Assembly: GCA_022706765.1 (NCBI GenBank)
Contig: JAKJBX010000004.1
Span: 1 to 64,000 of the forward strand
DNA: 64,000 nt
Source: Bacillota bacterium
Lineage (GTDB): Bacteria > Bacillota > Clostridia > Monoglobales > Firm-18
Reading direction: 5' to 3'
Position 1 is the stretch's first letter, and the number at the start of each line of letters is the position of its first letter. Shown here piece after piece: positions 47,169 to 52,892 of the stretch. The notes beneath the pieces are model-generated. The model worked only from the letters and a program-made list of their open reading frames with translations, did no database searches and was not told where the DNA came from. The position numbers and the translations under genes were made by a program.

Positions 47169-47241
47169 ATTATTTTGCGTCTACGCCTGCGATGTAGTTG
47201 GTGAGGTCGATGACCTTGTTTGAATAACCCCACTCGTTGTC
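47169..47241 (-). repeat. Left attachment repeat (relic gapA 3' end)
   Basis: Identical over 73 bp to 52820-52892. It encodes on the minus strand the final [20 protein letters not shown] and DAK-stop of GapA without an upstream gene. Sequence diverges immediately on both sides. Confidence 0.95.
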
Positions 47242-47444
47242 GTCTTGGTGTGCAGTTTACATTTGAGGCTTAAACACGCATTGCAGAGCGGTTTTTGACA
47301 TTTTAATGTTCATAAATTTTTAAGTTTTTTAGCTGATTTTCGGTAGTTCATTGTCGTATTCCGAAAACAATTCCACTACCTTACAGAAGTAATATTATCA
47401 TAATGGGTTGTGATTGTCAACTCCAAAAATTACAAGGTATCACA

Positions 47445-47768
47445 TTATTCAAGTAAACCATATATGTACCCGATTAGCTTTGCTTTTTGCTCTGATTTCA
47501 AATTTTTAAGCAAAGAAACTATTTCCAAATCCTTTGTATCGGGTTCGTTAATTGTCTTGTCTGTAATAACCTTACTTATATTAGTCCTATCCAATAAAAA
47601 GTCCGTTGATACATTGAAAAAGTCAGCCATCTTGCAAAGCGTTTCAGCACTCGGCAAGGCTTTTCCGCTTTCATAGGCACTTACCGTTTCCTGTGCAACA
47701 TCTATTTCAACACTAAGGCGCACTTGCGTAATATGCTTTTTTAGCCTAATTGTCCGTAAATTCTTCAC
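47445..47768 (-). CDS. XRE-family transcriptional regulator of the element
   Basis: 107 residues. N-terminal HTH (about 5-60; LRTIRLKKHITQVRLSVEID, then AQETVSAYESGKALPSAETL), and a short helical C-terminus. Divergent from the zinc-ribbon gene with an AT-rich, palindrome-rich gap (47769-47887) that should hold both promoters and operators. Likely the maintenance repressor of the element. Confidence 0.88.
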   Translation of the reverse strand: MKNLRTIRLKKHITQVRLSVEIDVAQETVSAYESGKALPSAETLCKMADFFNVSTDFLLDRTNISKVITDKTINEPDTKDLEIVSLLKNLKSEQKAKLIGYIYGLLE

Positions 47769-47887
47769 GTTTCCACCTCAAATATATAAATATTATCTAT
47801 AATTATATATAGAGGGGTTGTATTTTTTAGATATGTGGTATATAATTTCAGATATATAATATATATTTTATAGAAAGAAGGGTTATT

Positions 47888-48121
47888 ATGGCACTTATCA
47901 AATGTCCGGCTTGTAGTAAAGACGTTTCAAGTAATGCGGCTTCTTGTCCCCATTGCGGTGAACCCATTGACACCTCTATCAAATGTCCTAAATGTGGGAG
48001 TGCAAACACAAAGGTTATTAGCGGAGCATCAAAAGCGGCATCTGTTGCATTATGGGGAGTGTTCGCCGCCAATAAGGTTATGAGCAAACATGTATGTAAT
48101 GATTGTAACCATAAGTTTTAA
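47888..48121 (+). CDS. Zinc-ribbon protein with short hydrophobic centre
   Basis: 77 residues. First ribbon: CPACSKDVSSNAASCPHCGE, two Cys pairs; second: CPKCGSANT near the middle paired with CNDCNHKF at the C-terminus. Between the halves of the second ribbon lies a weakly hydrophobic segment (ASVALWGVFAAN). GAAAGAAGGG precedes the ATG. Such double zinc ribbons occur in small accessory proteins; function unknown. Divergent from the XRE regulator. Confidence 0.75.
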   Translation: MALIKCPACSKDVSSNAASCPHCGEPIDTSIKCPKCGSANTKVISGASKAASVALWGVFAANKVMSKHVCNDCNHKF

Positions 48122-48159
48122 GGCTACTTATCAATAATAGACGATTGGAGGTGCTGATA

Positions 48160-48406
48160 ATGTCAAAGGGGTCAATATTCATATGTTTACGACTATGAAA
48201 TACCGACTGACAAGATAGAATTATATGGAATTTACATAAAAAAGTACGATGAAATACTTGAGAACAATGGATTTCAATATACTGGTTCATTTAAAAACGA
48301 AAATGATTTATATGTATTTTCTTTTGGAAAGGATGGAGTTGTTATAATGCACAGTATTGAATTTCTAAATGGTAAATTCTACTTCAGAATATTGTTACCA
48401 AATTAA
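48160..48406 (+). pseudogene. Small gene with a single-base frameshift
   Basis: ATG at 48160 with TTGGAGGTG upstream reads MSKGSIF and then stops in frame; shifting by one base after about seven codons opens a frame of about 75 codons (YVYDYEIPTDKIELYGIYIK onwards, ending FYFRILLPN). Removing one base near 48177-48180 gives a continuous 80-residue protein. No family recognised. Either a broken gene or a sequencing error. Confidence 0.6.
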
Positions 48407-48668
48407 GTCTTGGGATAGAACGTTAGTAAATTTATGGGTAATTACATAATATGGCATAAGAGCTTTTACATCAAGTAGAAGCTCTTTTTTCTTTCGGTAT
48501 CCAAAATTCCGCCTTACGCTGACAGGTATGTACTGCCCCTTTCCCCACTATGGCATTCTCCAAAAGATGTGTAAACTACCCCCTACTCCTACGCAACAAA
48601 ACGTGTACTGTTTTTTGTACAATAAGTATGATATAATAAAAGCACAAGATATAAAGGGGGCTTCCGTT

Positions 48669-48839
48669 ATGGCTGATTGGAACATCAATACCAATTATTC
48701 CGCAAGCAGGGCGTTCCACGGTGAATGGGGCAAGGGTAACAAAGGCGGCGGCAGTCCTTCGGGCGGTGGTTGCTTTACGCTTATTGTAACGGTGCTTGCT
48801 GTTGTGGGAGAGGTAATATTTATAGTGTTCAATGGTTGA
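48669..48839 (+). CDS. 56-residue glycine-rich, C-terminally hydrophobic peptide
   Basis: Starts MADWNINTNYSASRAFHGEW, then a Gly/Lys/Ser linker (GKGNKGGGSPSGGG), and one hydrophobic helix CFTLIVTVLAVVGEVIFIVF. AAAGGGGG is 8 bp upstream of the ATG at 48669, and a TATAAT box sits at 48632-48637. A longer in-frame reading from 48528 has no ribosome site. It is a probable membrane peptide of the element: toxin, phage-defence or holin-like roles are possible, none shown. Confidence 0.6.
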   Translation: MADWNINTNYSASRAFHGEWGKGNKGGGSPSGGGCFTLIVTVLAVVGEVIFIVFNG

Positions 48840-48848
48840 TGTGATAGT

Positions 48849-51133: not shown

Positions 51134-51299
51134 GAAGACTTACATCGGTACGCCACGGCTGAAGCCGCCGCTTAACCGCTGTAAGAAAACTGCATATTTT
51201 TATTCGGCTACGCCTTTATAAAAATAGTGCAGAATTGCATGTTTTAATTATATTATAATAGAAAAGGAATGAATAACAATAGAGAACAAAGTAATAAAT
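51134..51299 (+). other. Non-coding structured gap in the element
   Basis: Holds CGGCT-GA-AGCCG and a longer hairpin CTGCA-TATTTTTAT / ATAAAAATA-GTGCAG (51190-51232), then an AT-rich TATATTATAATAG promoter-like stretch. GC-richer than the genes beside it. It could be a regulatory RNA or an origin-type site; nothing in the sequence decides. Confidence 0.4.
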
Positions 51300-51704
51300 A
51301 TGGGAAATTTGGTAGTCCTGAAGGACGATGACATCGAAAAACAAACGGCTGACTGGCAACAAGCGAGAATTGAAAGTAAGCAAGCACATCACGATTTAAC
51401 AGATATAATACATACAAAGTTAATGCCTCTTGCTAAAAAACAAGGAAGTACAAATACTGGTAAACTTTATATGATATATTCAAAACTCATAAACTCTGTT
51501 TTAGGTATCGGAACAGGGCAAAGAAACAATTTATCGTTGGCATATATGAACGCAGTACGATTTTTAGAATATAGTATTTGTAATATTATATTCGCAGAAG
51601 TTGAAAAAGAAACATTTTACAAGACCATTTACAATATGTGCAAGAAAAAATGTCAAGCGATTAAAGAGCTATCATATTTACCAAGCCTTGATAAGATAGC
51701 GTAA
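51300..51704 (+). CDS. Element protein of unknown function (134 residues)
   Basis: MGNLVVLKDDDIEKQTADWQ at the N-terminus, then helical, lysine-rich sequence with GIGTGQRNNLSLAYMNAVRF. The ribosome site AAAGGAATGA is 28 bp from the ATG at 51300 but right before an in-frame ATA codon at about 51273, so the true start is uncertain. No family recognised. It is the last plus-strand gene before the convergent recombinase. Confidence 0.5.
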   Translation: MGNLVVLKDDDIEKQTADWQQARIESKQAHHDLTDIIHTKLMPLAKKQGSTNTGKLYMIYSKLINSVLGIGTGQRNNLSLAYMNAVRFLEYSICNIIFAEVEKETFYKTIYNMCKKKCQAIKELSYLPSLDKIA

Positions 51705-51708
51705 TTGG

Positions 51709-51731
51709 AGCGGGGAGAGTTATACCCTCCC
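51709..51731. terminator. Short hairpin between the last element gene and the recombinase
   Basis: GGGGAG-AGTTATACC-CTCCCC between two convergent genes; it could serve both. Confidence 0.5.
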
Positions 51732-51739
51732 CTTCCTCC

Positions 51740-52639
51740 TTACAGATTCATCAAAGGACTGGTTTTTAGGCTTGCTTGCAATACTTCTCTATCCCTTAAT
51801 CCTAAAAGGTATTGTTGCGTTATAGAAATATTTTCGTGTCCCATAATTCGGCTTAGGCTATAAATGTCTAAGCCGTTTTTTAATTGCATTTGGGCGAAGG
51901 TGTGGCGGCAGGTATGAGGACTTATTCGTATATCGGTGCTGACATTGGCGGCTTGCCCCGCTTCCTTTACAATCTTTCCAAGCGATTCAGAGGTTAATAT
52001 TTTGCCGTTTCTGCTCAAAAATACCGTATCTGAAATTAGCTTATCGGCAAAGTAGGCGTTTCGGACATTCATATACTTAAACAGCCATTTTGATAGCAAG
52101 GGGCTTTTGGGGACAACCCTTTCTTTATCGCCTTTGCCGTGAATTATAATATAATCGTCCTTAATCTGCCCTATTGTCAAAGTTGCCAACTCGCTTAACC
52201 GTATGCCAGTATCAAAGAACAAAATCAAAATAGCCTTATTACGGACGTTCAGAAAATCAAAGCCGGAATAATATTCTATCATAGCTTTAACTTGTGAATT
52301 GGTAAAAGTCTTTATGATTACTTTGGGCTTTTTAACATTCTTGATTTTATCCGTCAGGACAGTCTCGGTATATTCTTCCTCGTGGAGATACTTGCAGAAG
52401 CTCTTATACACTTTCAAGAGGTCATTAAGGTAATTAGGCTTACGCCCCGCTTCGTCATTCATACGGATAAATTCCTTGATGTACAGGGGCTTTAATTGTT
52501 CAAGTGTTGTAATGCCTTTCCCCTCCAAAAAGTTAAGTAGCAGACGTAAAATCATTTCATAGTTGGTAATCGTCCTTTCTGATAACTTCCTGCACTTACA
52601 GTTGAATAGATACTCCGCTTTTAAGTCTTTTAACAACAT
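51740..52639 (-). CDS. Tyrosine recombinase (integrase) of the gapA element
   Basis: 299 residues. N-terminal SAM-like core-binding domain (about 1-90) and catalytic domain with all expected residues: Arg147 (DTGIRLSEL), Lys near 171 (GKGDKERVVP), His242 and Arg245 (PHTCRHTF), His268 (IMGHEN) and the nucleophile Tyr277 (TQQYLLG). XerC/phage-integrase type. It sits 180 bp inside the right attachment repeat, as expected for the enzyme that integrated the element into gapA. No excisionase gene is recognised. It appears intact. Confidence 0.95.
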   Translation of the reverse strand: MLLKDLKAEYLFNCKCRKLSERTITNYEMILRLLLNFLEGKGITTLEQLKPLYIKEFIRMNDEAGRKPNYLNDLLKVYKSFCKYLHEEEYTETVLTDKIKNVKKPKVIIKTFTNSQVKAMIEYYSGFDFLNVRNKAILILFFDTGIRLSELATLTIGQIKDDYIIIHGKGDKERVVPKSPLLSKWLFKYMNVRNAYFADKLISDTVFLSRNGKILTSESLGKIVKEAGQAANVSTDIRISPHTCRHTFAQMQLKNGLDIYSLSRIMGHENISITQQYLLGLRDREVLQASLKTSPLMNL

Positions 52640-52690
52640 AAAAAATACATCCTTTCTTAAGCCTAAAACTCAAAAAAGGATGCACATTTC

Positions 52691-52757
52691 ATTGTCATAA
52701 TAGCGAATTGTAAGGCTAATATGATTATCGTAGTATAAAGGTAATTGTCATAACAGA
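52691..52757. repeat. Paired direct repeats near the right end: possible recombinase arm sites
   Basis: ATTGTCATAATAGCG at 52691-52705 and ATTGTCATAACAGAG at 52744-52758, 13 of 15 identical, about 53 bp apart, in the 180-bp non-coding gap between the recombinase and the att repeat. Confidence 0.45.
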
Positions 52758-52819
52758 GTGATGTAAATATTTTGATTACCCAAATATTGCGAGTGCCTTA
52801 AACCCTTTTATAATGCCAA

Positions 52820-52892
52820 ATTATTTTGCGTCTACGCCTGCGATGTAGTTGGTGAGGTCGATGACCTTGTTTGAATAACCCCACTCGTTGTC
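52820..52892 (-). repeat. Right attachment repeat (functional gapA 3' end)
   Basis: Second copy of the 73-bp repeat, in frame with gapA, supplying its last 22 codons and stop. Confidence 0.95.

Follow-up and report, generated by a model that had tools for sequence, protein, structure and literature searches.

Within the 64,000-nucleotide window analyzed here (positions 1 to 64,000 of contig JAKJBX010000004.1 from a Bacillota bacterium), a 5.65-kb AT-rich stretch beside the glycolytic gene gapA is very probably an integrative element, now decayed and likely derived from a phage, that re-tailed gapA with an end of its own. It is a real integrative element at gapA and belongs to a known kind; the pattern seen across its integrase family is more interesting than the copy in the window. 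Compared with the initial annotation of this DNA, the new points are sister integrases that use yebC, a hairpin over the presumed integrase ribosome-binding site, and motif repeats. The features that define the insertion are as follows.

52821..53849, minus strand: gapA, complete, with its last 24 codons and stop within the right repeat copy (GAPDH-I model)
52820..52892, minus strand: right repeat copy, exact match, forming the junction that faces gapA and the integrase
51740..52639, minus strand: tyrosine integrase, 299 aa, intact, with a Phage_integrase domain
47169..47241, minus strand: left repeat copy, exact match with the same codons and stop, a relic of the gapA tail
47124..47155, minus strand: terminator-like hairpin of 14 pairs beside the left repeat copy, presumed to be the original gapA terminator, now displaced

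Based on sequence comparison within the window, the direct repeat is 73 bp long and exact, and its two copies lie 5651 bp apart. On the minus strand, gapA is finished in frame by the right copy, and the gapA product scores 442 bits against the GAPDH-I model (cut-off 367.2). The left copy holds identical codons and stop but is preceded by unrelated DNA. No third copy was found in the whole 1.63-Mb assembly (26 contigs, 82% complete). Additionally, the G+C content of intervals inside the element is 0.32–0.41, while that of the flanks is mostly 0.47–0.58. The initial annotation had described an exact 73-bp repeat at these coordinates, one copy completing gapA with the other left as a relic, and an AT-rich interior; all of this held, the second claim by codon comparison of both copies. 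In the proposed mechanism, a tyrosine integrase would have attached a gapA tail carried by the element to the host gene at its 3′ end. The host's own tail and terminator likely now lie 5.65 kb away as a relic, and the gapA frame is complete.

The gene at 51740–52639 encodes a full-length tyrosine recombinase whose Phage_integrase domain scores 108.5 bits. In an alignment with 8 relatives, Arg147, Lys172, His242, Arg245, His268, and Tyr277 are invariant; we take these six to be the catalytic residues. The complete recombinase that had been noticed beside the right repeat copy is thus confirmed. The best NCBIfam scores are to XerC (180.5 bits) and XerD (165.7 bits), and identity with either was rejected because these scores fall far under the equivalog cut-offs of 335.15 and 329.6. 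The integrase shares a protein superfamily with XerC and XerD, whereas its own family is element-borne and linked to gapA or yebC. Among about 5.8 billion proteins, 743 relatives were found at E ≤ 1e-60; within the best 120 of these, one relative named from Agathobaculum butyriciproducens represents 521 contigs. Phage and plasmid collections contained integrase relatives only under 60% identity, and the matches listed from them (15 of 324 and 8 of 3455 records, respectively) are about 27–31% identical. A scan of viral contigs with the single integrase as query returned no relative, and the same scan with an integrase alignment (A1) returned 16 loci. The integrase is uncommon: surveys found it in 1 of 8 family genomes, in 4 of 51 from the order, in 4 of 391 from the class, and in 5 of 247 genomes of the family of G012, a Faecalibacterium genome; each of these counts includes one genome that supplied the query.

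To place the window copy among its relatives, the gene upstream of each integrase was recorded. The genome collection holds nine integrase loci, of which seven are linked to gapA, one (L011) is linked to yebC, and one is a distant match. In the seven, which come from Caproiciproducens, Agathobaculum (three), Faecalibacterium (two), and one rumen Clostridia metagenome-assembled genome, the 3′ end of gapA lies 147–225 bp upstream of the integrase and points in the same direction. GapA of the Faecalibacterium loci is only about 45% identical to that of the window; therefore, the integrase is linked to the site and not to a shared locus. Over 26 loci, the target directly upstream of the integrase is gapA in 10, yebC in 12, and neither in 4, so that the integrase gene adjoins a target-gene end in most of them. 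This tally leaves out L013 (32%), L050–L058 (partial or distant matches), and the Faecalibacterium loci found later. In three of the four loci that have neither target (L045, L046, and L049), the contig begins at or just before the integrase; the fourth is L047. One yebC-type integrase (L078:1501–2403), in a single-contig genome, contains one internal stop codon.

A tree of 27 integrases places the gapA users (10 rows) in a single clade with support of 100/100, and the target label changes once, compared with a mean of 7.5 changes when labels are shuffled. This clade joins seven yebC users at 90/92, within the wider set of yebC users. The gapA users are thus apparently nested in the yebC users, with the direction from yebC to gapA depending on the 90/92 fork and on the midpoint root. 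On these data, it is likely that one integrase family uses the ends of both genes.

In 17 relatives, the DNA downstream of the integrase was searched for a second copy of the target tail. Such a copy is present in 12 of the 17, or in 13 of 18 when the window is counted; the five misses (L006, L007, L011, L041, and L076) all run into a contig end. The copies measure 77 bp at 100% identity in L005, 66 bp at 100% in L008, 106 bp at 99% in L009, 128 bp at 92% in L010, and 110 bp at 86% in L012. Second copies also occur in L040, L042, L073, L074, L077, L078, and L079, and the elements span from 5.65 kb in the window up to about 42 kb in L010. The element of L012 is flanked by two gapA tails that are identical in protein and spelled differently: 18 of 111 positions differ, and by direct count 3 of these lie in the edge codon and 15 are silent. 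The two copies of L073 differ in the edge codon and also in two residues close to the C-terminus. This layout, recurring in other genera, supports the proposal of the initial annotation that the neighboring integrase inserted the element at the 3′ end of gapA and kept the gene complete.

The cargo between the relic and the integrase is small.

47445..47768, minus strand: XRE-type regulator
47888..48121, plus strand: small zinc-ribbon protein
48669..48839, plus strand: 56-aa open reading frame (ORF), no family matched
49801..50598, plus strand: probably shortened ORF, helicase-like by eye only
50780..51133, plus strand: 117-aa ORF of unknown kind
51300..51704, plus strand: C-terminal part of a Rha-type phage regulator

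The 134-aa ORF at 51300–51704 matches the Rha-type phage regulator in its C-terminal part only and is 59% identical to a 226-aa protein. The frame of the 234-aa ORF, the helicase-like one in the list, extends further upstream with no evident start, and its single relative is 311 aa long, which suggests that the ORF is probably shortened; its helicase-like look found no support in the library. Furthermore, the cargo includes stretches whose frames are broken by stops. When the cargo was compared with all fetched loci, the regulator alone matched. PADLOC, run on the six cargo ORFs, likewise matched the regulator alone, as a helix-turn-helix type, and detected no known defense genes. Among the element ORFs scanned, no relaxase or conjugation gene, as expected of an integrative conjugative or mobilizable element, exceeded the cut-off, and a conjugative element was rejected; the regulator does match MobT (E 0.025), but only over its helix-turn-helix. 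No capsid or terminase gene was found in the window element, so it does not qualify as a complete prophage. The related L005 element has both a major head protein and a terminase. Other relatives carry an AAA/AbiEii-like ATPase and a DEAD helicase (L008), helicases and glycosyltransferases (L009), or an ArdC-type anti-restriction protein (L012). These data come from a scan of five relatives with 20 protein entries (P0122 included), and from a further scan of ten. Since the cargo differs among relatives, the integration module is common to different element types. Because the Rha-type gene is partial and another ORF is probably shortened, the copy in the window resembles what is left of a decayed phage-type element whose integrase is still intact. 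Such a copy would probably no longer be self-sufficient.

Two other accounts of the stretch were weighed against this one. The assembly, in 26 contigs, is a draft and incomplete, and the 73-bp copies could in principle stem from misassembly or from a plain local duplication in which no integrase took part. However, the same layout, with the integrase beside the target end and a second tail downstream, recurs in 12 of 17 relatives from unrelated assemblies, and some of these, such as L010, are single-contig chromosomes. Assembly duplication was rejected on the basis of this repetition, and we regard the whole account as scarcely credible. Alternatively, the element might be a complete, active phage satellite or a defense island of a new type. 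The intact integrase and small cargo are in keeping with this, as are the helicases, AAA/AbiEii-like ATPase, or ArdC-type protein carried by integrase relatives. In contrast, the window cargo has a partial Rha-type regulator, a probably shortened ORF, and frames broken by stops, and it has no packaging, capsid, or known defense gene. We therefore rejected an intact satellite and a defense island as improbable, and the initial annotation's suggestion of a satellite or a new defense/regulation island finds no support in the partial regulator, the probably shortened ORF, and the helix-turn-helix matches that were all PADLOC returned.

Next, gapA ends lacking the element were compared. All seven other genomes of the family have gapA (81–92% identical) with no such integrase after it, and a hairpin 3′ of the gene was seen by eye in six of them, L063 being ambiguous. 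The empty site expected by the initial annotation, an uninterrupted gapA followed by the hairpin, is thus present in relatives, all of which belong to other genera and none to the same species. In Faecalibacterium, 26 of 31 genomes match the joined flanks of L010, mostly over the gapA part only, and G689 aligns across all 600 bases at 89%. The integrase occurs in 4 of the 31 at E ≤ 1e-40, namely G012, G013, G690, and G679, the last with an internal stop. Besides G012 and G013, 18 of the 26 matching genomes had their gapA ends read, in 20 stretches. The end in G690 is occupied, and those in G679, G688, and G691 have a broken or partial integrase. G689, G700, G701, G702, and G678 show an element-like gap and hairpin with no integrase, the gap being shortened in G678. 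G684, G677, G694, G695, G696, and G294 have short and clearly different ends. The remaining G229, G687, and G682 have other ends, of which the first two are somewhat like the element gap. The integrase-free ends with the element-like gap and hairpin correspond to loci L117, L118, L122, L123, and L125. In G691 (L119 and L120), two gapA tails with gap and hairpin lie about 40 kb apart, with a further flank match about 7 kb on, an arrangement that suggests tandem or layered insertions. Faecalibacterium has occupied, apparently scarred, and empty gapA ends.

The terminator and the far end of the element were also inspected for signals that could control the integrase.

52645..52685, minus strand: terminator-like hairpin directly before the integrase start, with the presumed ribosome-binding site in its 3′ arm
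47392..47420, minus strand: promoter-like site pointing outward from the far end, TTGACA-17-TAATAT (consensus match only)

In 19 of 24 loci, or 16 of 20 without near-copies, folding of the 66 bases that precede the integrase start gives z ≤ −3.5, and the hairpin in the window reaches −23.2 kcal/mol (z −5.7). By eye, a T-run follows the stem, and a purine-rich stretch, taken as the ribosome-binding site, lies in the 3′ arm. Rfam gave no family at gathering score in 8 loci, and two sub-threshold matches in the window were taken as chance. In the proposed mechanism, this hairpin would replace the displaced gapA terminator and cover the integrase ribosome-binding site. As long as the element stays integrated, transcription of gapA would thus give little integrase. 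Once it is excised, a far-end promoter would drive transcription through the rejoined site and on into the integrase. On the viral contig L044 (5770–6003), a yebC tail of about 18 codons, without any yebC body, lies between another ORF, which we take to be portal-like, and the integrase; a TTGATA-18-TATAAT site was seen by eye upstream. The arrangement resembles a joined attachment site, as an unintegrated yebC-type element would have, and it is the only candidate for such a site that was observed.

Both the hairpin and the apparently scarred ends admit another account. As the gapA terminator was displaced, a new one was needed, and the hairpin might merely serve as this replacement with no part in integrase control. 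It is retained at Faecalibacterium gapA ends without an integrase, and in L073 a hairpin-like terminator lies directly 3′ of gapA in both copies. In 19 of 24 loci, of both the gapA and the yebC types, it sits directly before the start codon and its stem includes the purine-rich stretch, which argues for more than termination, and we hold the terminator-only account to be possible, if somewhat doubtful. Similarly, the gap and hairpin at integrase-free Faecalibacterium ends might be native and have been copied by the element, instead of being scars. Hairpins that are similar, not identical, follow gapA in G678, G687, and G229, all without the full gap. In contrast, the gap with a core-like motif is missing from the six clearly different ends, and a similar gap and hairpin also follow the relic in the right flanks of G012, G013, G690, and G691, as expected of layered insertions. 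Layered insertion with scars is one of the two readings of these ends, and the native origin has an appreciable, though minority, chance of being correct.

Strand exchange would occur close to where the repeat has its 5′ edge, within the codons that specify Tyr-Asp-Asn-Glu. The shortest identity block, that of L008, begins at the Glu codon of this sequence; therefore, the exchange should lie at the Glu codon or downstream, and the element carries the tail to the stop. The stretch from exchange to stop must still encode the GapA C-terminus. The integrase would bind a TAYGAYAA-type word, which is spelled by the Tyr-Asp-Asn codons and repeated in the gap between gapA and the integrase and near the far end.

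52744..52752, minus strand: core-like motif TATGACAAT, gapA-integrase gap
52724..52732, minus strand: core-like motif TACGATAAT, gapA-integrase gap
52691..52699, minus strand: core-like motif TATGACAAT, gapA-integrase gap, second occurrence
47395..47402, minus strand: core-like motif TATGATAA, near the far end
47351..47358, minus strand: core-like motif TACGACAA, near the far end

Motif counts in the gaps were taken from 18 non-redundant gaps, and the spacing shared by the window and L043 from a set of 15 gaps that includes near-copies. On the strand of the gene, TAYGAYAA has eight sites in four of the seven gapA-type gaps (shuffled mean 0.18, maximum 4). In 13 far ends, a set that contains near-copies, it has seven sites, all on the strand of the gene (shuffled mean 1.3 on both strands, maximum 6). 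Moreover, the spacing of 20 and 33 bp between motif copies is identical in the window and L043, and among yebC-type loci, counted by eye, the spacing of 33 recurs in L078 and that of 20 in L075. The yebC site encodes Tyr-His-Asn in most loci, one base off the gapA word, and Trp-His-Asn or Tyr-His-Thr in some. That this single base between the two words might explain the target switch is an idea.

These observations can be joined into one reading of the family: a single family of integrases would recognize a brief DNA word that household proteins spell through their conserved codons, and would have moved once from Tyr-His-Asn in yebC to Tyr-Asp-Asn in gapA, one base away. Each element would rebuild its target gene and supply a new terminator that doubles as a lock on the integrase's ribosome-binding site, and the new gapA end would remain as a scar once the element dies. 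As a whole, we offer this reading tentatively and think it rather unlikely. Several results weigh against the explanation given above for the element and its integrase. L047 has neither gapA nor yebC in the 6 kb upstream of the integrase. Three of the seven gapA-type gaps contain no TAYGAYAA site, and the yebC-type gaps contain four sites in three of 11 (shuffled mean 0.57, maximum 5). In an unbiased count of 8-mers, TTATGATA ranks joint first, occurring in 5 of 18 gaps, which is no higher than the best shuffle. The motif copies of L077 are 28 bp apart, not 20 or 33. The two tail copies of L012 differ inside the proposed exchange region, the exchange point is placed approximately, and no circular junction or excision of the window element was observed, in an analysis that had no reads. 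The hairpin is missing in 4 of 24 loci (L073, L040, L042, and L047) and weak in L076. RNAalifold found no consensus pair in the hairpin alignment, a failure that we suspect is due to the alignment not holding the stems in register; the case for the hairpin therefore comes from single-sequence folds and their shuffles. Finally, of the 13 far ends, 6 have outward promoter-like sites (shuffled mean 1.97), and as this equals the shuffled maximum of 6, the far-end promoter step is weak. In L047, positions 6001–7809 hold two tyrosine recombinase genes that face each other, possibly marking a third target or another arrangement.

As reported, restoration of a target gene by an element-borne end is established (PMC10111431, PMC5704250, and PMC12884075). 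For gene-restoring integrases, the attP site carries the replacement sequence, the target gene works, and identity blocks can reach about 250 bp (PMC10111431), and the 3′ ends of housekeeping-protein genes are named sites of mobilizable elements (PMC5704250). As in gene-restoring islands and prophages at icd and many tRNA genes, the end carried by the element keeps the target gene working; the difference lies in the targets, which in the integrase family studied here are gapA and yebC. Neither of these gene names occurs in the main text of PMC10111431 or PMC5704250, and a Faecalibacterium prophage paper (PMC5883640) contains no word beginning with dehydrogenase. In the titles and displayed abstracts that searches of an open-licence library listed, neither gene is named as an integrase site, although such a site may be in print elsewhere. 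Likewise, we did not find the integrase family described in those titles and abstracts, while gene-restoring integrases are a known kind.

The proposed control has a close parallel in the integrative and conjugative elements (ICEs) ICEKp1, ICEclc, and ICEEc1. For these elements at tRNA genes, PMC13023037 describes experiments in which integration displaces the terminator of the target gene and a host promoter then transcribes the integrase. This transcription is attenuated by a stem-loop within the leader of the integrase, and once the element has been excised, a promoter at its far end takes over. The logic of displaced terminator, leader stem-loop, and far-end promoter matches that proposed here. 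In contrast, those are proteobacterial ICEs at a tRNA gene, studied by experiment, whereas the case here concerns a glycolytic protein gene in Clostridia and sequence evidence; the gapA element also differs in that its hairpin holds the presumed ribosome-binding site. Additionally, in helper-embedded phage-inducible chromosomal islands, integrase subclades respect target-site groups (PMC10111431). The family studied here resembles them in that integrase clades follow their site, and differs in that their sites are prophage late genes, whereas here two household genes share a short codon-spelled motif.

If the family reading is true, a glycolytic promoter feeds and silences an integrase simultaneously. 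The family offers a countable case of a target switch by an integrase from one household gene to another, in which the two sites and the gene tails carried by the elements can all be seen. It also shows that mobile elements can provide a glycolytic gene with its final codons and the sequence that follows, recoded silently as in L012 or with changed residues as in L073. Furthermore, these integrases are candidate tools for placing DNA next to gapA in Clostridia while leaving the gene unbroken.

The first larger gene past the relic and its hairpin lies at 45932–46762 and is presumably thymidylate-synthase-like; no match to it was found within 0.3–1.5 kb 3′ of gapA in the seven family relatives. 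Inside the element, positions 48994–49022 hold a sigma-70 promoter-like site with a 12 of 12 match, located before a stretch that resembles a decayed regulator gene.

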